DNA of 33,323 nucleotides, from positions 1-33,323 of the forward strand of contig JADLHW010000082.1 in assembly GCA_020848615.1 (NCBI GenBank), written 5' to 3'. Origin of the DNA: Thermoleophilia bacterium (lineage in GTDB: Bacteria; Actinomycetota; Thermoleophilia; Miltoncostaeales; Miltoncostaeaceae). A program made the translations under genes and the position numbers. How positions within the stretch are numbered: the first letter of the stretch is position 1; every line of letters begins with the position of its first letter. Of this stretch, positions 4,317 to 13,559 are shown piece by piece. The notes under the pieces are model-generated. The model was not told where the DNA came from. It was given only the letters and a program-made list of their open reading frames with translations, and did not search any database.

Positions 4317-5498
4317 TTACGCCGTAAGTGCGGGAATCGTCTCCCGGAGGGCGGCGAGGACGGCGTCCAGGTCCTCCCGGCCGATCACCAGCGGCGGCAG
4401 GAAGCGGATCGTCCGCGGCCCGGTGGCGTTCACCAGGATCCCGCGTGCGAGCATCGCCGACACCAGGTCGGCGGCGCGGGCCTGGGGCAGGTCCAGCCCG
4501 CACATGAGGCCCCTCCCGCGCGCCTCGGTGGCCAGACCGTCGGCGACGAGGCCCCGGAGGCCGTCCAGGAACCGGGCGCCCTCCTCCCGCACGTGCGCCT
4601 GCAGCGCGGGGTCGGCGAGCACGGCGGTGGCCGCGAGGCCGGCGGCGCACGCCAGCGGCCCGCCGGCGAACGTCGACCCGTGGTCTCCCGGCTGGAACGT
4701 CGCGTCGATGCCGGGCCGCGCCGTGATCGCCCCGATCGGCACGCCGCCGCCCAGGCTCTTGGCCATGGTCATGACGTCGGGTGCGATGCCGAGGTCCCGG
4801 TACGCGAAGGTGGGACCGGTGCGGGCCAGGCCCGTCTGGATCTCGTCGAACACCAGCAGCGCCCCGTGCCGGTCGCACAGCTCCCGGGCGAGCCGCAGCA
4901 TCTCGGGCGGCGTGGGGTGCACGCCGCTCTCGCCCTGGACGATCTCCATGAACACGGCCGCGGTCCGCGGCCCCACGGCGGCGTGCAGCCCCTCCATGTC
5001 CTGGCGGTCCACGTGCACCACGCCGGGCAGCAGCGGCCGGAACGCGTCCTGCTTGCCGGGCTGCCCGGTGAGCGTGAGGGCGCCGTAGGTGCGGCCGTGG
5101 AAGCTGTCGACGAGCGCGACGACCTCCGGCCGGCCCTGCCCGTGCTTGCGGCACAGCTTCAGCGCGGCCTCGACGGCCTCGGTGCCGGAGTTGCAGAAGA
5201 ACACCCGGCCACCCATGGAGTTGTCTCGGATCCACTCCGCCAGCGCGATCATCTGCTCGGTGTAGAACAGGTTCGAGACGTTGATGAGGCGGGCGGCCTG
5301 CTCCTGGATCGCGGCGACCACCGCGGGGTGGGAGTGCCCCACGTTGATCATGGAGATGCCGGCGACGCAGTCGATGTACCGGCGGCCGTCCGGGTCGAAC
5401 AGGCCGGCGCCCTCGCCGCGCACGAACTGCACGGGCTGCCGCCGGTAGTTCGGCATGAGCGCCTTCTGCTCGCGCTCGATGAGCCGTTCGTCGATCAT
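4317..5498 (-). CDS. argD: Acetylornithine aminotransferase
   Basis: PLP enzyme (393 aa, normal length) that transaminates N-acetylglutamate semialdehyde to N-acetylornithine, the fourth step of arginine synthesis. Visible features are the phosphate-binding NSGTEA (103-108), DSFHGRTYG (131-139), the cofactor-contacting Asp in FDEIQTGLARTG (217-228), and the Schiff-base lysine K247 in MTMAKSLGGG. ATG 5496-5498 overlaps the argB stop as ATGA. Several acetylornithine transaminases also act on succinyldiaminopimelate, but the arg context supports ArgD. It is the last arg gene here; argF, argR, argG and argH are not in this window. The frame is open for 64 codons upstream, but that part is a shadow of argB. 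Confidence 0.97.
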   Translation of the reverse strand: MIDERLIEREQKALMPNYRRQPVQFVRGEGAGLFDPDGRRYIDCVAGISMINVGHSHPAVVAAIQEQAARLINVSNLFYTEQMIALAEWIRDNSMGGRVFFCNSGTEAVEAALKLCRKHGQGRPEVVALVDSFHGRTYGALTLTGQPGKQDAFRPLLPGVVHVDRQDMEGLHAAVGPRTAAVFMEIVQGESGVHPTPPEMLRLARELCDRHGALLVFDEIQTGLARTGPTFAYRDLGIAPDVMTMAKSLGGGVPIGAITARPGIDATFQPGDHGSTFAGGPLACAAGLAATAVLADPALQAHVREEGARFLDGLRGLVADGLATEARGRGLMCGLDLPQARAADLVSAMLARGILVNATGPRTIRFLPPLVIGREDLDAVLAALRETIPALTA

Positions 5499-6391
5499 GC
5501 GGTGATCTTCGTGCCGATGCCGGCCTCGGTGAACAGCTCCATGAGCACCGAGTGCGGCACCCGCCCGTCCACGATCTGCGCCGCCTCGACCCCGTGGGCC
5601 AGCGCGTCGCGCACCCCGGCGAGCTTGGGCAGCATCCCGCCCGTGATCACGCCGTGGGCGATCATGTCCTCCAGCTCCAGCAGGGTGCACTCGCTGATGA
5701 GCGTGGCGGGGTCGTCCGGGTCCCGGTACAGCCCCTCCACGTCGGTGAGGAACAGCACCTTCCGGGCCCGCAGGGCGCCGGCGAGGCTGCCGGCCACGGT
5801 GTCGGCGTTCAGGTTGTAGCTCTGTCCCAGGGCGTCGACGCCCACGGACGCGACCACCGGCACGAAGTCCGACAGGTGCTGCAGCACCGCGGGGTTGATC
5901 GCCTCGACGCGCCCCACGAAGCCGATGTCGTTGCCGTTCGGGGTCTGCTTGGACGCCCGGATGAGGTTGCCGTCGTCCCCGGCGAGTCCCACGGCCGGCA
6001 CCCCGGCGACGTGCAGCTGGGCGACGATCTCCTTGTTGATCTTGCCCACCAGCACCATCTTGGCGAGCTCCATGGTGGCGGCGTCGGTGACGCGCAGCCC
6101 CTCCACGAACCGCACCTCGAGGCCCAGCAGGTCGGAGTAGCGGGAGATGTCGGGGCCGCCGCCGTGGACGACCACGGGGTTCATACCCACGAGCTTCAGC
6201 AGCGCGATGTCGCGGGCGAAGGAGGCCTTCAGCTCCGGGGTGACCATCGCGGCGCCCCCGTACTTCACGACGATCGTGTGGCCGGCGAAGTCCCGGATGT
6301 ACGGCAGCGCCTCCAGCAGGACCGCGACGCGGGCCTCCAGGCCCTCCCGCCGGTCCGCGAGGCTCGGTGTTCCCTCGGTGTTCGTGCCCAT
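5495..6391 (-). CDS. argB: Acetylglutamate kinase
   Basis: Phosphorylates N-acetylglutamate (298 aa), the second step of arginine synthesis. Amino-acid-kinase motifs are VVKYGGAAM (41-49, with K43), VVHGGGPDI (74-82), FVEGLRVTD (95-103), NADTVAGSLAGAL in the C-terminal half, and FLTDVEGLY. A helical N-terminal extension of about 35 residues precedes the first motif, as in hexameric arginine-inhibited enzymes, so feedback inhibition by arginine is likely (inference). ATG 6389-6391 has no obvious Shine-Dalgarno. A TAGGCT -10 element lies 10 bases upstream, so argBD may have its own promoter with a very short leader. This would make sense because a propeller gene separates it from argCJ. Confidence 0.97.
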   Translation of the reverse strand: MGTNTEGTPSLADRREGLEARVAVLLEALPYIRDFAGHTIVVKYGGAAMVTPELKASFARDIALLKLVGMNPVVVHGGGPDISRYSDLLGLEVRFVEGLRVTDAATMELAKMVLVGKINKEIVAQLHVAGVPAVGLAGDDGNLIRASKQTPNGNDIGFVGRVEAINPAVLQHLSDFVPVVASVGVDALGQSYNLNADTVAGSLAGALRARKVLFLTDVEGLYRDPDDPATLISECTLLELEDMIAHGVITGGMLPKLAGVRDALAHGVEAAQIVDGRVPHSVLMELFTEAGIGTKITA

Positions 6392-6401
6392 CAGAGCGGG
6401 C

Positions 6402-6407
6402 AGCCTA
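6402..6407 (-). promoter_or_regulatory. Possible -10 element for argBD
   Basis: TAGGCT on the minus strand, 10 bases before the argB ATG, fits an actinobacterial -10 (TAnnnT) with a near-leaderless transcript. No TTGACA-like -35 is evident at 16-18 bases upstream. Confidence 0.35.
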
Positions 6408-6446
6408 GTGGACGCGGCGCGAACCCTCCACGCCGGGGCGGCCCGG

Positions 6447-8633
6447 CTACCTCCGCCGCAGGGCCACCGACACCCGGCGCAGGGGCGGCTTCACCACCAG
6501 CGTCACCCCCACGCCGCGCAGCCGCACGTCGTAGCGCCCGGCGCCCAGGGCCGCACGACCCACGCGGGCGGGCAGCACGAACGCGTTGGCGCCACGGCGG
6601 GCGCGGTAGACCTTCGCGGCCAGCACCTTCCGGGCGCCGCGACGCGACACCTCGACCCGGACGGTCACACGGCTCGGGGCCCGGAAGCTCACGCGGATCC
6701 GGCAGGGCGCGCCGAGCCGCGCCGCGCGCACGCAGGCGGTGCGGAAGGCGGTCGCCGTGACACGCCGCAGGTTCGCGTTCCCGGTTCCGCCGCCGGATCC
6801 CACCACCTCCAGCGTCACCTCGTCGCTGTCGGTGCCCGCGAGGTCCACCATCGTGACGGTGTACGTGCGGCGCTGGGTGGCGATCAGCGGCGTGCCGGAG
6901 ATGACCCCGTTGGAGGGGTCGAGGGCGAGACCGGCGGGCAGGGACGGGCTCACGCTGAACGCCGCCGCCCCGGTGCGGCGCACGGTGCCCGGTCCCAGCG
7001 GGGTGAGCGCCGCGCCGACCCGTGCCGACACGGTGCTGGCGGTGTAGTTCACCTGGGTGGTGCCGTAGCCCAGCACGACGTCCTCGGCGCCGGCGTCCGT
7101 GCGACCCTGGGGGTCGGCGTTCTTGGTCCCCACCAGGGCGTCGGGGCGGCCGTCGCCGGTGAGATCCCCGGTGGCCGCGACCCAGGCGCCGGTCTGGTCG
7201 TTCGCGGCGCTGCCGCGGATGGTGATGGCGGCGCCATCGGGCTGCGCGAGGTTGAGCCGTCCGGCGGTGGGCAGCGCCGTGACCAGGTACGCGGCCCCCA
7301 CGTTCGACACGCCGGGCGCGTCCACGCCGTTCGCGCCCATGAGGATGTCGCCGCGCCCGTCGCCGGTGAGGTCCCCCACCGACGCCACCGACACGCCCAG
7401 CTGGTCGCCGCCCAGCGCCCCGTCCACCCGCACCGACCGCGTCCCCAGGTCCGAGAGGTCGACGGTGCGCGTGTCGGCGGAGCCCCGCACGAAGAACACC
7501 GCGCCGCTGTCCACCCGTCCCGGGGCGTCGGCCCGGGACGCGCCGATGAGCATCTCGCTGCGCCCGTCGCCGTCGCTGTCACCCACCGCGCCCAGGGCGA
7601 TGCCGAGCCAGTCGCCGGCGGCGGCGCCGTCGATGCGCGCGGCCCGGGTGCCCGCCTCGGGGCCGCCCAGGTCGAGGGTCGTCGTGGCGCCGCCGCCGAA
7701 CACCACGGACGCGGCGCCGGCGTCCAGGCGGCCGCCGGCCGGGCCGCCGGGGTCGAACAGGGGCGCCCCCAGGAGGATGTCGGGCCGGGTGTCGCCGTTC
7801 ACGTCGCCGCCGGCCGCGAGGCGGCTTCCGAGGTTGTCGTCGGCGGCGGCCCCGTCGATGCGCCAGACGCGGCCCGCGGGCGGGGCCGCGAGGTCGATGC
7901 TCGCCGGGGAGGCCGACCCCAGCACGACGTAGGCGGACCCGGAGCCGGTCCGGCCGTTGTTGTCGGCGAGGGGCGCGCCGACGACGACGTCGGCGAAGCC
8001 GTCGCCGTTCACGTCGCCCACGCCGGCCACGGCCGAGCCGAGGAGGTCGTTCGCGGCGGCGCCGTCGATGCGGATGCCGCGGTCGCCGAGCGACGCCAGG
8101 TCGAGCGGCGTGCGGGCGCTGCCGCCGAACACGATGTACGCCGAGCCGGCGTTCACGCGGCCACCGCCGTCGGCCTGGTACGCGCCGAGCACGATGTCGG
8201 TCTTGCCGTCGCCGTTCACGTCGCCGGCGGACGCCACGGACACCGCGGTGTTGTCGCCGGGAGCGGCCCCGTCGATGCGCACGACGTTCCCGGTGCCCGA
8301 CAGGTCGATCCCGCCGGGCCGGAACGGGCCGAACGCGAGGTACGCGGAACCGGCGAGGGTGCGGCCGAAGGGCCGTGCCTGCCAGGCGCCGACGAGCAGG
8401 TCGCGGGCCCCGTCGCCGTCGATGTCCCCGACCGCCGCCGCGGCCTCGCCGACGCGGTCACCCGGGGCGGCCCCGGAGATGCGCGAGACGCCCGCGCCGG
8501 GGCTGCTGAGGTTCAGCAGGCCCGTCTGCTGCGGGAGGACGGCGACGGCCCCGGCGGCAGCCGTCAGCAGTGCCGCGGCGGCCAGCGGGAGCGGTCTCAG
8601 ACGGCTTCGGGGGATGCGTCCTCGCACACTCAC
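6447..8633 (-). CDS. Secreted FG-GAP (integrin-alpha-like) beta-propeller protein with Ig-like domain
   Basis: Large predicted exported protein (728 aa). An Arg-rich start and hydrophobic stretch (about residues 15-33, LPLAAAALLTAAAGAVAV) form a signal peptide. Seven FG-GAP repeats follow at 60-70 residue spacing up to about residue 510. Each has a Ca-binding loop such as GDVNGDG, GDSDGDG or GDLTGDG and a start like RIDGAA, so they would close a seven-bladed propeller. An Ig-like (putative He_PIG) domain with LPAGLALD and GVISGTP comes next (about 550-615), then a basic Ig-like C-terminal module. The propeller class binds proteins or glycans outside the cell; the ligand here is unknown. The start is GTG 8631-8633, with a TGCTAGCGT extended -10 six bases upstream and no Shine-Dalgarno. 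It sits between argJ and argB, an unusual place. Confidence 0.9.
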   Translation of the reverse strand: MSVRGRIPRSRLRPLPLAAAALLTAAAGAVAVLPQQTGLLNLSSPGAGVSRISGAAPGDRVGEAAAAVGDIDGDGARDLLVGAWQARPFGRTLAGSAYLAFGPFRPGGIDLSGTGNVVRIDGAAPGDNTAVSVASAGDVNGDGKTDIVLGAYQADGGGRVNAGSAYIVFGGSARTPLDLASLGDRGIRIDGAAANDLLGSAVAGVGDVNGDGFADVVVGAPLADNNGRTGSGSAYVVLGSASPASIDLAAPPAGRVWRIDGAAADDNLGSRLAAGGDVNGDTRPDILLGAPLFDPGGPAGGRLDAGAASVVFGGGATTTLDLGGPEAGTRAARIDGAAAGDWLGIALGAVGDSDGDGRSEMLIGASRADAPGRVDSGAVFFVRGSADTRTVDLSDLGTRSVRVDGALGGDQLGVSVASVGDLTGDGRGDILMGANGVDAPGVSNVGAAYLVTALPTAGRLNLAQPDGAAITIRGSAANDQTGAWVAATGDLTGDGRPDALVGTKNADPQGRTDAGAEDVVLGYGTTQVNYTASTVSARVGAALTPLGPGTVRRTGAAAFSVSPSLPAGLALDPSNGVISGTPLIATQRRTYTVTMVDLAGTDSDEVTLEVVGSGGGTGNANLRRVTATAFRTACVRAARLGAPCRIRVSFRAPSRVTVRVEVSRRGARKVLAAKVYRARRGANAFVLPARVGRAALGAGRYDVRLRGVGVTLVVKPPLRRVSVALRRR

Positions 8634-8639
8634 GGCGCC

Positions 8640-8648
8640 ACGCTAGCA
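8640..8648 (-). promoter_or_regulatory. Possible extended -10 for the propeller gene (leaderless)
   Basis: TGCTAGCGT on the minus strand has the TGn extension and a TAnnnT hexamer that ends six bases before the GTG start. Transcription would begin at or next to the start codon. The -35 is not recognisable. Confidence 0.4.
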
Positions 8649-8677
8649 GCGTCGCCCGACGATGGACTACACCTTTT

Positions 8678-8705
8678 GTGAGGAGGACCACGCATCCCTC
8701 CTCAC
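8678..8705 (-). terminator. 9-bp hairpin upstream of the propeller gene
   Basis: GTGAGGAGG and CCTCCTCAC are perfect 9-base arms around a 10-base loop. It follows the stop of the possible 51-aa gene by seven bases. There is no U tract, but the stem could end transcription coming from argJ and the small gene. One arm contains a GAGGAGG Shine-Dalgarno-like sequence on the minus strand that would be hidden in the stem. Confidence 0.4.
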
Positions 8706-8712
8706 GGGTGTT

Positions 8713-8868
8713 TCAGATTGGTTCGGTGTGCGGTGCGCGCAGGGCCGCGACGTCCGCCCGGTCGAGGACGGCGACGTCGCCCAGCGGCTCGTCGTCGGGT
8801 GACTCGGGGGCGGGACCGCGGGCGATGGCGCGGCCCAGGAACGCGGCGAGCTTGTGGATGAATGACAC
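8713..8868 (-). CDS. Possible small protein, 51 aa, unknown
   Basis: A GTG-started frame in the 308-base space between argJ and the propeller gene. It begins VSFIHKLAAFLGRAIARG, which could form an amphipathic helix. An acidic middle (APESPDDEPLGD) and a second helical stretch (VAVLDRADVAALR) follow. The composition is protein-like and the arrangement (short helix, acidic linker, helix) is coherent, but no Shine-Dalgarno is evident and I know no homologue. It would be co-transcribed downstream of argJ and ends just before a 9-bp hairpin. If it is not a gene, this stretch is otherwise empty. Confidence 0.4.
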   Translation of the reverse strand: MSFIHKLAAFLGRAIARGPAPESPDDEPLGDVAVLDRADVAALRAPHTEPI

Positions 8869-8913
8869 GGGGACCGCCGGTGGTCGGTGAGGGTCGTCCC
8901 CTCCCTATCGGCA

Positions 8914-8939
8914 GCCCGGTGCCGGTGGTGCACCCGGGC
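8914..8939 (-). terminator. Weak hairpin just downstream of argJ
   Basis: GCCCGG-TGC and GCACCCGGGC can pair with one bulged base, three bases beyond the argJ stop. There is no U tract. It could slow or end transcription of the long infC-argJ operon, but this is uncertain. Confidence 0.3.
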
Positions 8940-8941
8940 GG

Positions 8942-10165
8942 TCAGGTCCGGTATTCGGCGTTCAGCGTCACGTAGGCGTGCGTGAGGTCGGACGCCCACA
9001 GGGCGTGTGAGGCGCTGCCGCGGCCCAGCGACACCTCCACGTCGTACTCCGGCCGGGCCATCACCCCGGGCGCGCCGGGGTCCGACAGCGCCAGTCCGTC
9101 AAGGGTCACGGCGAGGTCGGCGGGCACGCCCGGCGTGCGCGACAACGCCTGCCCCACGGCCTGGGAGATGCGGCCCCAGTTCGGGTCCCGCCCGAAGATC
9201 GCGCACTTGACCAGCGGCGACTCCCCGATCGCGCGGGCCACCCGCTCGGCCTCGGCCGCGTCGCGCGCCCCGGTCACGGCGATCCGCACGGCGTGCTCGG
9301 CGCCCTCCCCGTCCTTCACCATCTGGATCGCGGCCCAGCGGCACACCGCCGTGACGGCGTCCGAGAAGCGCTGGAGGTCGTCTCCGCGCAGGGGTTCGCC
9401 CACGCCGTTCGCCATCACCAGGAGCGTGTCCGACGGGCTCATCTGCCCGTCCACGCTGATGCGGTTGAAGCTCCGGTCGGCGGCCCGGCGGGTGACCTCC
9501 TGCACGTCGGCGGGGAGCAGCGCCGCGTCGGTGGTGAGGTACGCGAGCATCGTCGCCATGGTGGGCCGGATCATCCCGGCGCCCTTGGCGGCCATGCCGA
9601 GGTGCACGGCGCCCCCGGGGAGCTCCAGGCGGAAGGCCCCGCCCTTGGGGGCCCGGTCGGTGGTGCAGATCGCCCGGTTGAACTCCATGCCGTTCCCGGC
9701 GTCCTGTGCGGCGCACGCCGTGTCGATGGCCGGCAGGACCCTGCCCAGGTCGACCCGCTCGCCGATGGTGCCGGTGCTGCACACCGCCACGTTCGCGGGG
9801 TCGAGCTCCAGGCCGCGGGCGGCCCGCTCCGACATCCGCCGGGCGTCGTCGAGGCCGGGGGAGCCGGTGGCGGCGTTCGCGGTGCCCGCGTTCACGACCA
9901 CGGCCTGCAGCCGCGCCCGGTCCCGGGTGCGGTTGAGCCGCACCGGCGCCGACGGCAGGGCGTTGATGGTGTCCACCATCCAGGAGGCCACGGGCCGGAC
10001 GCTGCGCAGCACGCCGAGGTCGAGCGCCCCCGACGGCTTGAGGCCGCAGGAGGTCGCGCCGGCGGTGAACCCCTCCGGCGTGGTCACCGACCCGCCCGGG
10101 ACCGGCGCCAGGCCGTCCGGGGCGCCGAGCCAGTCGGACCGCTCGATGGGCGGGAACGTGCTCAC
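8942..10165 (-). CDS. argJ: Glutamate N-acetyltransferase / amino-acid acetyltransferase
   Basis: Transfers acetyl from N-acetylornithine to glutamate and, in bifunctional forms, also makes N-acetylglutamate from acetyl-CoA (407 aa, normal length). The N-terminal GFTAGATSCGLK and the GTANAATG segment are family hallmarks. The self-cleavage site is in MIRPTMATMLAY, where Thr205 would be the nucleophile and new N terminus of the beta chain. Whether it is mono- or bifunctional cannot be read from motifs. The start is GTG 10163-10165, which overlaps the argC stop as GTGA and places the conserved N terminus correctly. The frame is open for 44 codons further upstream, but these lie inside argC. Confidence 0.96.
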   Translation of the reverse strand: MSTFPPIERSDWLGAPDGLAPVPGGSVTTPEGFTAGATSCGLKPSGALDLGVLRSVRPVASWMVDTINALPSAPVRLNRTRDRARLQAVVVNAGTANAATGSPGLDDARRMSERAARGLELDPANVAVCSTGTIGERVDLGRVLPAIDTACAAQDAGNGMEFNRAICTTDRAPKGGAFRLELPGGAVHLGMAAKGAGMIRPTMATMLAYLTTDAALLPADVQEVTRRAADRSFNRISVDGQMSPSDTLLVMANGVGEPLRGDDLQRFSDAVTAVCRWAAIQMVKDGEGAEHAVRIAVTGARDAAEAERVARAIGESPLVKCAIFGRDPNWGRISQAVGQALSRTPGVPADLAVTLDGLALSDPGAPGVMARPEYDVEVSLGRGSASHALWASDLTHAYVTLNAEYRT

Positions 10166-11145
10166 AGACCCTCCGTCTCCGGGCGTCCGGCCATGAGGTT
10201 GAGGTTCTGCAGGGCCTGGCCGGCGGCGCCCTTGCCGAGGTTGTCGATCACCCCGAACGCGATCACGCGGCCGCGCGCCGCGTCGAGCACCGGGCACACC
10301 TGGGCGAAGTTCGTGCGCTGCACGGCCCGCATGCCCGGCGGGGTCTCCACGACCTCCACGAACGGGTGCCCGGCGTAGAAGGACCGGTACCGGTCCAGCA
10401 GCTCGTCCTGCGTGGACGGGGCGTCACCGGTGAGCCGGGCGTAGCAGGTGGCCAGCAGGCCGCGGTCCACCGGCACCAGGTGCGGCGTGAAGATCACGTC
10501 GGTCCCGAGCTCCTGGGCGATCTCGGGCGTGTGCCGGTGGCTCAGCACCTTGTACGCCGACACGCTCTCGGTGACGGTGCAGAAGTGGACGGCCTCGGTG
10601 GCCGTGCGGCCGGCGCCGCTCACGCCGCTCTTGGCGTCGACGACCACGTCGGCGAGCGCCCCGGCGAGCGGCAGCAGGGCCAGGATGCTCGCCTCGGGGT
10701 AACAGCCCGGGTTCGCGACGACCCGTGCGGTGCGGATCGCGTCCCGGTACCGCTCCGGCAGGCCGTACACGGCCTCGGCCAGCAGGTCGGGGCGGGGGTG
10801 CTCGAAGCCGTACCACTCCGGGTACAGGGCGGCGTCGCGCAGGCGGTGGTCCGCGGAGACGTCCACCACCCTCGCGCCGCGGTCCACGAGCTCCGACACG
10901 AGCTTCGCGGCCTCGGCGTGCGGGTAGCAGACGGCCGCGAGATCACCGGGCGCCACGGCCGCGGCGTCCGGCGGGGTGAGCACCTTGGCGACCCGGTACT
11001 GGGGGTGGATGTCGGTGATCCGCCGGCCCGCGTCGGCCCGGGCGGTCACGGTGCCCAGCTCGAACCACGGGTGCGCGTCGACGAGCGCGGCCAGCTGCGA
11101 GCCGGCGTACCCGGCGGCCCCCAGGACGTGGACGACGGCGCTCAT
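10162..11145 (-). CDS. argC: N-acetyl-gamma-glutamyl-phosphate reductase
   Basis: NADPH-dependent reductase (327 aa) that makes N-acetylglutamate semialdehyde, the third step of arginine synthesis. The Rossmann loop GAAGYAG is at 9-15, the catalytic cysteine is C148 in VANPGCYPEA, and SGVSGAGR and HRHTPEIAQEL follow. ATG 11143-11145 overlaps the pheT stop as ATGA, so it is translationally coupled to the tRNA synthetase genes. The reading frame extends far upstream as a shadow of pheT, and the ATG was chosen by homology and coupling. It ends overlapping argJ by 4 bases. Confidence 0.97.
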   Translation of the reverse strand: MSAVVHVLGAAGYAGSQLAALVDAHPWFELGTVTARADAGRRITDIHPQYRVAKVLTPPDAAAVAPGDLAAVCYPHAEAAKLVSELVDRGARVVDVSADHRLRDAALYPEWYGFEHPRPDLLAEAVYGLPERYRDAIRTARVVANPGCYPEASILALLPLAGALADVVVDAKSGVSGAGRTATEAVHFCTVTESVSAYKVLSHRHTPEIAQELGTDVIFTPHLVPVDRGLLATCYARLTGDAPSTQDELLDRYRSFYAGHPFVEVVETPPGMRAVQRTNFAQVCPVLDAARGRVIAFGVIDNLGKGAAGQALQNLNLMAGRPETEGL

Positions 11146-13559
11146 CCGCGCAACTCCGCGCCGTGGCGCTCGCCCAGCGCGGCGCGGACGGCGTCGACCG
11201 CGCCGGCGATCTCCTCGGCGGTGAGGGTGCGGCCCGGGTCGGCCACCGTGAGCCGCCGCGCGAGGCTCACGCGCCCGTCGCCGACCTGCGCGCCGGCGTA
11301 CCGGTCGAACACGCGCACGTCGCGCACCAGGGCGCCGCCGGCCTCCCGGGCGGTGCGCACCAGGTCCGCGGCGGTGACCTCGCCGGACACCACCACGGCC
11401 AGGTCGCGGGGCGAGGCCGGCACGGTGAGCAGATCCTCGAACCGCCGCGGCTCGGTGGGGGCGGCCGCCAGCAGGGCGGCGAGGTCCAGCACCACCGCGG
11501 CGGCCGGACCGGTGACGTCGAAGTTCCTGAGCACCCGCGGGTGGATCTCCCCCACCCAGCCCACGACCCGGTCGCCGCACGCGAGGCGGGTCTGGCGCAC
11601 CGGGTGGAAGTAGGGGGCGGCGTTGGGCTCCTGGGCGGGCCGCACGCCGGCCGCGGCGCACAGCGTCACCGCGAGGCCCGTGGCGGCGTGGATGTCCACC
11701 GGCGGCGCCGGCGTGCGCCAGTGGTCCTTCCCGGGGGTCCCGAACATCAGGGCCGCGAGGAACTCCCGCTCGTCGGCGAGCCCGTCCGCGCGCGGGGCGT
11801 AGGTGCGCCCCACCTCGAACAGGGCGCCGCTGGGACGCTGGTGCCGCTGGTTGCGGGAGGCGGCCCGCAGCAGGCCGGGCAGCATGGACCGCCGCATCAC
11901 GGCCATCTCCTCGGAGATGGGGTGGGCCAGGCGCACCACGTCGCGGCGCGGGTCGTCGGCGGCCATCTGCAGGCGGTCCGCGTCGTCCGGCGGGACGAAC
12001 CGGTAGGTCACGGCCTCGCTGAGGCCCAGGTCGGCCGCCAGCCGGCTCAGGCGCACCGCGAGCCGCTGGGCGGGCGTGCGGCGCCCGTCGCCCACCAGCC
12101 GCGGCAGCAGCTCCGGCACGTGCCGGTAGCCGTGGATGCGTCCGGCCTCCTCGATGAGGTCGGCCTCGCGGCTCACGTCCTTGCGGCGCCAGTACGGCAC
12201 CACGGCGTCCGCGGCGCCGGGGTGCTCGGTCACCGCGAAACCCAGGCGCCGGAGCGTGGCGGCCGCCTCGGCGGCGGGGATCTCCATGCCCAGCAGGGCC
12301 GCCGCGCGCGCGTGGCGCATGCGCACGGTCACGGGCTCCGGCGACGGCGTCGCCGCGTCGAGGACACCGGGCACGAGCTTCGCGCCGGCGAGCTCGGTCA
12401 TGAGCCGGCAGGCGATGGTCATCGCGACCGCGGGCAGCTCCTGCGGGAGCACCTTCTCGAACCGCGAGCTGGACTCCGACCTGAGCCCGAGGGCGAGCGA
12501 GGTGGTGAGGATGTTGGGGCCGTCGAAGCAGGCCGCCTCCATGAGCACCCGCGCGGTGCCGTCGTGCACCTCCACGTCCTCGGCGCCCATGATCCCGGCG
12601 ATCACCGCGGGCCGCTCCGCGTCGGCGATGACCAGCATGTCCGTGGTGAGGACCCGCCGCTGGCCGTCGAGCGTGGTGACCGGCTCGCCGTCCGCGGCGC
12701 GGCGCACGACGACGCCCGGCCCGGCCATGCGGTCCAGGTCGAAGGCGTGCAGCGGCTGGCCGGTGAGCAGCATCACGTAGTTCGTGATGTCCACCACGTT
12801 GCTGATGGACCGCATGCCGGCGGCCTCCACCCGGGCGGCGAGCCACGCCGGGGACGGCCCCACCGTCACGTCGGTGAGCACCCGGGCCATGTACCTGGGG
12901 CACAGGTCCGGCGCGTCGACGCGCAGCCACACGTGGTCCCCCACGGTGCCCGGTCCCTCCTCGGGCGCCTCGGTGAGGTCCAGCGGCGTGAGGTCGGCGC
13001 CGGTCACGGCGTGCACCTCGCGGGCCATCCCGAACACCGACAGGCAGTCCGGCCGGTTGCTCGTGATCTCGAGATCCAGGACCGTCTCGGCGATGGGCAG
13101 CACGTCGGCGAGCGGCGTGCCCGGGGCCGCCTCGGGCAGCTCCATGATCCCGCCGCCGTCCGATCCCAGGCCCAGCTCGGTGTCGCTGCACAGCATCCCG
13201 GAGCTCAGGACGCCGCGCAGCTTCGCGGTGCCGAGCGGCGGGCGCCCGGGCAGCACGGCGCCCGGCAGGGCCACCGCGACGGTGAGGCCGGCCCGGGCGT
13301 TCGGCGCGCCGCAGACGATCTGCCGGGGGGCGTCCTCGCCCACGTCGACGGTGCACACCCGCAGCCGGTCGGCGTTGGGGTGCCGGACGGCCTCCAGCAC
13401 CCTTCCCACCCGGAAGTTGCCGAGGTTGCCGTCCGCCTCCGGAACCCGTTCGTGCAGGCCCTCCACGGCGGTGCCGGTGTCGGCGAGCCGCTCCGCCAGC
13501 TCGCCGGCGGGCAGGCCGGCGTCGACGTGGTCGCGCAGCCACGACAGGGGCAGCTTCAC
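11142..13559 (-). CDS. pheT: Phenylalanyl-tRNA synthetase beta subunit
   Basis: Beta chain (805 aa, full length) of the alpha2-beta2 enzyme that charges tRNA-Phe. The order is an N-terminal module (KLPLSWLRDHVD), a tRNA-binding OB domain (about 38-150, with HPNADRLRVC and IVCGAPNAR), the B3/B4 editing domain, the B5 domain (about 400-480), the catalytic-like core, and the anticodon-binding FDX-ACB domain (about 710-800, with PRDLAVVV and the ending RRLTVADPGRTLTAEEI). The start is GTG 13557-13559, which overlaps the pheS stop as GTGA. The further upstream frame is a shadow of pheS. It overlaps argC by 4 bases at its end. Confidence 0.97.
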   Translation of the reverse strand: MKLPLSWLRDHVDAGLPAGELAERLADTGTAVEGLHERVPEADGNLGNFRVGRVLEAVRHPNADRLRVCTVDVGEDAPRQIVCGAPNARAGLTVAVALPGAVLPGRPPLGTAKLRGVLSSGMLCSDTELGLGSDGGGIMELPEAAPGTPLADVLPIAETVLDLEITSNRPDCLSVFGMAREVHAVTGADLTPLDLTEAPEEGPGTVGDHVWLRVDAPDLCPRYMARVLTDVTVGPSPAWLAARVEAAGMRSISNVVDITNYVMLLTGQPLHAFDLDRMAGPGVVVRRAADGEPVTTLDGQRRVLTTDMLVIADAERPAVIAGIMGAEDVEVHDGTARVLMEAACFDGPNILTTSLALGLRSESSSRFEKVLPQELPAVAMTIACRLMTELAGAKLVPGVLDAATPSPEPVTVRMRHARAAALLGMEIPAAEAAATLRRLGFAVTEHPGAADAVVPYWRRKDVSREADLIEEAGRIHGYRHVPELLPRLVGDGRRTPAQRLAVRLSRLAADLGLSEAVTYRFVPPDDADRLQMAADDPRRDVVRLAHPISEEMAVMRRSMLPGLLRAASRNQRHQRPSGALFEVGRTYAPRADGLADEREFLAALMFGTPGKDHWRTPAPPVDIHAATGLAVTLCAAAGVRPAQEPNAAPYFHPVRQTRLACGDRVVGWVGEIHPRVLRNFDVTGPAAAVVLDLAALLAAAPTEPRRFEDLLTVPASPRDLAVVVSGEVTAADLVRTAREAGGALVRDVRVFDRYAGAQVGDGRVSLARRLTVADPGRTLTAEEIAGAVDAVRAALGERHGAELRG

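Follow-up and report, generated by a model that had tools for sequence, protein, structure and literature searches.

Why does a gene for an apparently secreted protein stand inside a cluster of arginine biosynthesis genes, and does its place there say anything about its function? The question is raised by the window, the whole stretch of 33,323 nucleotides analysed here, on the minus strand of which the order is pheS-pheT-argC-argJ, a 51-aa ORF, an FG-GAP gene and argB-argD (Table 1); the first of these is what we take, from its ORF, to be pheS. A previous, sequence-only reading had described a secreted seven-repeat FG-GAP gene and the 51-aa ORF between argJ and argB on the same strand, a description confirmed by the ORFs, the Pfam matches and the repeats. 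In what follows, G000 is the source genome of the window, g1 is its genus, composed of G000 and G001, and f1 is its family, of which 42 genomes were surveyed.

Table 1. Coordinates (in the window) of the arginine cluster, the inserted genes and the associated sequence elements
Feature	Position	Strand	Remarks
argD (acetylornithine aminotransferase)	4317-5495	minus	Pfam Aminotran_3, E=1.6e-104
argB (acetylglutamate kinase)	5495-6391	minus	ATG at 6391; Pfam AA_kinase, E=1.3e-46
Putative argB -10 box, TAGGCT	6402-6407	minus	10 nt before ATG
FG-GAP gene (inserted)	6447-8633	minus	ORF, GTG start, 728 aa
Putative FG-GAP -10 box, TAGCGT	8640-8645	minus	6 nt before GTG; identical in G001; leaderless-type
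Conserved block upstream of FG-GAP, 28 nt	8660-8687	minus	Possible operator
Inverted repeat GTGAGGAGG/CCTCCTCAC	8678-8705	not assigned	Stem at same place in G001
51-aa small ORF	8713-8868	minus	Start, stop and length same in G001; 49% identity
Hairpin GAGGG...CCCTC after argJ	8886-8905	minus	Predicted fold; same stem predicted in G001
argJ	8942-10165	minus	Pfam ArgJ, E=9.5e-111
argC	10162-11145	minus	Start codon overlapping pheT end
pheT	11142-13559	minus	Overlaps/abuts argC

The propeller gene and the small ORF

The product of the FG-GAP gene is laid out as a signal peptide (a signal-peptide-like N-terminal hydrophobic stretch at residues 17-33), an LPQQxG motif, seven FG-GAP repeats, an Ig-like He_PIG domain and a variable C-terminal domain. 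Pfam searches with the 728-aa protein retrieved FG-GAP (E=1.1e-40) and the He_PIG Ig-like domain (E=9e-10), the former (PF01839) scoring 137.3 bits, above its curated cut-off of 22.1. The seven repeats carry the motif GDx[DNT]GD at residues 69, 137, 206, 276, 351, 420 and 489. Calcium loops of the type Dx[DN]xDG are strict in four of the seven blades and off by one residue in the remaining three, and only two of the seven blades have GAP. The sequence scan of the protein revealed neither an LPXTG-like motif nor a second stretch of comparable hydropathy. An AlphaFold model built from a six-sequence alignment (mean pLDDT 62.5) is fairly confident for residues 39-522, mostly with pLDDT of 60-94, and poor beyond residue 522. 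The modelled structure has a propeller fold, for which the best matches in PDB are integrin alpha headpieces, with TM-scores normalised by the target of up to 0.74 (e.g. 3nid_A, 0.73, E 3e-17). The best PDB matches by sequence are integrin alpha propellers too (E 5e-6), in agreement with the fold matches. Most likely, the protein is exported and functions as a calcium-stabilised, integrin-alpha-like seven-bladed propeller that would bind something extracellular.

Bacterial integrin-type seven-bladed propellers, as characterised in an excerpt of PMC3192720, likewise consist of seven FG-GAP repeats whose calcium loops resemble Dx[DN]xDG, whereas the propeller studied here is followed by He_PIG and by a C-terminal domain not resolved in the model. 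It probably resembles the integrin propeller in working, yet falls outside the strict set of that source, because the strict Cage motif quoted in the excerpt has no match in the FG-GAP proteins of G000 and G001, and only four of the seven calcium loops are strict.

The 51-aa ORF is genus-specific, being present in two of the 42 family genomes, G000 and G001, and at the same site in both. It has a conserved middle, DDxPLGD...DVAALRA, and matched no Pfam family. That it is coding receives weak support from dN/dS of 0.63 over its 51 codons.

A genus-specific insertion at a recurrently occupied joint

At full length and high identity the FG-GAP gene occurs in two of the 42 family genomes, G000 and G001. 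The G001 ortholog, 70% identical (dN/dS 0.35), occupies the same place between argJ and argB, which makes a binning error unlikely; ArgB of the two genomes is 93% identical. In the tree of concatenated ArgC, ArgJ, ArgB and ArgD, g1 is sister to g2 (support 95), followed by g4 (99). Since these sister genera are tight at the argJ-argB joint, with gaps of 92-128 bp in g2 and 11 bp in g4, the insertion is genus-specific and derived, and is placed on the g1 stem. The view of the sequence-only reading that the insertion is lineage-specific is thus borne out by the two genomes of g1 and the tight joints of g2 and g4. Class-wide presence of the gene at this place, the outcome that would have pointed to an ancestral order, was not seen; among the loci compared, the largest gap outside the family, 1135 bp, is too small to hold it.

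Other FG-GAP proteins of the family are encoded at different genomic sites and belong to different clades, although several share the layout of signal peptide, LPQQxG, propeller and He_PIG. A scan of contigs for relatives returned 41 loci at 22-40% identity, none of them close. Two possible recent origins were ruled out, namely, a transfer into g1 (the GC content of the interval is 77% against 75% in the window, and its coding score is high) and copying of another FG-GAP gene of the same genome (the two g1 proteins group apart, in a clade with a long stem). The FG-GAP protein tree has open forks around the exact origin of the pair. A distant relative of the arg-locus propeller, an ORF of 4159 aa in which no fewer than 13 calcium-type loops of FG-GAP occur, is encoded elsewhere in the source genome (G000:C53:26387-38866; L158:2388-14867).

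Comparison of the argJ-argB gap across genomes revealed that it reaches at least 1 kb at 12 of 29 family loci, which, the family genera being few and related, are not 12 independent events, and at one of 105 outside loci (from 103 genomes in ten other families, with a median gap of 23 bp), some of which, in families f3, f8 and f11, rest on weak argB matches that may represent a related kinase. Fisher's test, which ignores relatedness, gives p 1.4e-8 for this difference. These counts cover genomes having both genes on one contig, which sets aside four split-contig family genomes (G005, G007, G019 and G029) and genomes in which only one of the genes was found, as well as outside genomes in which argJ lies beyond the matches listed; one duplicate row was removed.

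Six mutually unrelated cargo sets were found at the joint, as judged from ORFs called with a crude codon-usage score that misses some genes (e.g. it calls two in G033 and three in close relatives). These are the propeller in g1; genes for Zn/Mn transport (ABC, ABC-3, CDF and Nramp families), mostly on the opposite strand, in g12; solute-binding, bestrophin-like and periplasmic-binding genes in part of g9; a subtilase accompanied by an uncharacterised protein in g3 and g5; DUF1275 with a secreted, uncharacterised protein in g10; and a glyoxalase-fold protein in g6. When cargo was compared between genera at E 1e-5, only that of g3 and g5 matched. The tree requires at least seven changes of the cargo state and at least six of the tight or loose state. 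With six unrelated sets at the same joint, nothing singles out a surface protein.

Neighbouring joints of the family are closed. The pheT-argC distance is -10 to +2 in all 32 family loci holding both genes, argC and argJ are at most 28 bp apart in 34 of 34, and argB and argD at most 20 bp apart in 27 of 29. Thus, the argJ-argB joint is a family-wide insertion hot spot, of which no published description was found among the titles and abstract openings searched. Only in G005 (L092) and G006 (L076) are argB and argD set apart, by about 680 bp. In seven stretches from family f6 (L165, L166, L168, L169, L173, L175 and L176) pheT lies near argJ, and tblastn with ArgC of the window found no argC there; in f1 argC stands between pheT and argJ.

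Promoter-like boxes and hairpins around the insert

TANNNT boxes mark leaderless genes in Actinobacteria, as indicated in excerpts of PMC3160421 and PMC3898074. In likeness to such TA-led genes, the putative boxes of the window have their first T about 12-16 nt before the start, at 12 nt for the FG-GAP gene and 16 nt for argB. The excerpt of PMC3160421 places the signal at about 12 bp, and argB here would thus have a very short leader. The putative argB box is a six-letter pattern. The sequence-only reading had credited argB with its own TAGGCT element, and this proved correct beyond the window: a TANNNT box 5-11 nt upstream of the argB start is present in 23 of 34 family genomes, tight and loose ones included, and in two of 32 outside genomes, as compared to 0-2 and 0-3 matching genomes in the two sets at six shifted control spacings.

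Ten family genomes with gaps of at most 200 bp have the box without an insert. The box therefore does not come with the insert, as would be expected if it preceded insertion. One of the two outside genomes with the box, G181 of family f7, is also the only outsider with an insert larger than 1 kb. The G181 insert (L171:2631-3765) holds a PIN-domain (VapC-like) gene, and downstream of it TAGCCT lies 8 nt before the argB ATG. Correspondence between box and insert has exceptions: no strict TANNNT is present in g12, g3 and g5, all of them loose, and by eye only NANNAT is discernible at similar spacing, so insertion without a strict box exists. Both box and insert are missing from g4, and in g7, as read by eye, argB appears to have a leadered promoter.

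The FG-GAP gene itself seems to possess a conserved leaderless-type promoter. The 66 nt upstream of its start are identical at 60 positions between G000 and G001, as against 74% identity over the entire aligned interval. Searching with up to three mismatches for the 28-nt block within this conserved region, we found it once in G000 and once in G001, with no other site in either genome. A scan of the region for sigma-70 consensus promoters gave no hit, which is to be expected when a genome is rich in GC and has promoters of the TANNNT type.

Of the hairpins proposed to flank the inserted genes, the upstream one stands and the downstream one does not. The upstream inverted repeat is the only tested hairpin that clearly beats shuffled sequences, with a z-score of -2.8 in G000 (+0.3 in G001), while the downstream hairpin at 6400-6450 is ordinary (z -0.3), as is its counterpart in G001. 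The predicted hairpin after argJ, not far above shuffles, is a candidate for the 3′ end of a pheT-argC-argJ unit. No consensus terminator was found on the minus strand of 6200-9100. The single Rfam match in this region, mir-598, scored far below the cut-off and was discarded as chance. The proposal that the FG-GAP gene is insulated from the arginine genes does not hold across the genus, because in G001 the FG-GAP stop codon forms part of the argB -10 box and thus no terminator separates the two genes there.

Why the joint is open

The explanation that we favour, with a probability of roughly two thirds, is that a permissive joint with its own argB promoter accounts for the insertion, and that the propeller gene lies beside the arginine genes owing to permissiveness of the site, not to its function. 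The joint would separate two transcription units, pheT-argC-argJ on one side and argB-argD on the other, and be open to insertion. In this scenario, the family ancestor would have given argB its own leaderless-type promoter, and DNA landing thereafter between argJ and that promoter would have left transcription of argB-argD uncut and been tolerated. Unrelated genes could then have settled at the joint in at least six lineages. On the g1 stem the arrival would have been a family-typical secreted FG-GAP/He_PIG propeller gene with its own promoter, plus the 51-aa ORF. The promoter box of argB is the best correlate of the open joint and probably the reason for it; what opened the joint is inseparable from what the opening allowed.

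Repeated, mutually unrelated cargo at one joint might also be produced by a mobile element or site-specific integration at an attachment or target site used again and again, and the PIN-domain gene of the outside case could be read in the same way. However, no integrase or transposase family was found in the 21 interval ORFs scanned, out of 41 longer than 100 aa. The g1 insert is limited to the FG-GAP gene and the 51-aa ORF, neither of them an integrase or transposase, and there is no tRNA within the window. Furthermore, the Zn/Mn and S8 cargo is common to several genomes and therefore not recent, and the GC content of the g1 interval, given above, speaks against this origin too. Altogether, we regard such integration as unlikely.

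Functional linkage would mean that the propeller was selected into the arginine cluster as a growth-linked surface protein, co-expressed with the arginine or phenylalanyl-tRNA synthetase genes. The FG-GAP gene does lie on the arg strand and is kept in both g1 genomes, and the overlap of its stop codon with the argB box in G001 makes read-through into argB-argD likely there. Against this, the gene appears to have a conserved promoter of its own, other genera carry unrelated cargo at the joint (in g12 on the opposite strand), and the arginine repressor ArgR (PF01316) was found in none of 37 f1 genomes searched. The same search detected ArgR in 17 of 24 relatives from outside the family, including most of those from f2, f3, f4, f6 and f8, and a control search was positive in nine of 14 known genomes. 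Members of the same class that have ArgR share the argJ-argB order in their arginine clusters, and in several of them ArgR lies close to argB. ArgR is also absent from the five f5 and f7 genomes searched, yet the loci sampled from these families are tight except for G181, which implies that losing ArgR is not by itself enough to open the joint. Given the putative promoter of its own, conserved in g1, the uniqueness of the 28-nt block and the lack of ArgR in the f1 genomes searched, the suggested co-regulation of the FG-GAP gene with arginine synthesis is unsupported, and we consider functional linkage quite improbable.

Equally hard to credit is that argB-argD first left the cluster, taking a promoter along, and later rejoined it, the inserts being leftovers of rearrangement: in basal g7 (G007) argB and argJ are indeed on different contigs, argB being preceded by argG and further genes, and the g12 cargo is on the opposite strand, but tight argJ-argB joints in other families, g2, g4, g8, g11 and part of g9 would make repeated rejoining costly, and the argB-argD and argC-argJ joints are intact nearly everywhere.

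In the life-cycle model of operons, operons are split by gene insertion. Such splitting, as presented in an excerpt of PMC7760734, is similar to the favoured permissive-joint explanation in that a conserved cluster is broken, with spacing and internal promoters changing, but differs in that here a single joint was struck repeatedly, with differing cargo, and an internal promoter would mark the permissive lineages. The propeller gene is in itself ordinary; the locus provides a resolved natural case in which one operon joint opens in one family and is refilled by unrelated genes while its neighbours stay closed. The candidate cause is simple, namely a promoter box at the start codon following the joint, and lends itself to testing in other operons. 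Only tentatively, and with more doubt than confidence, can this be generalised to the proposition that a leaderless promoter gained within a conserved operon makes the joint concerned a lasting landing site, since a gene requiring no more than a -10 box just ahead of its start codon would let any DNA settle upstream. If true, TANNNT boxes in leaderless-rich bacteria would predict operon break points and lineage-specific gene build-up.

At three family loci (L078, L094 and L095, from G021, G036 and G032, respectively) the argJ-argB interval measures about 835 bp, is relatively rich in AT (63-64% GC) and has no called gene; it may be what is left of lost cargo.
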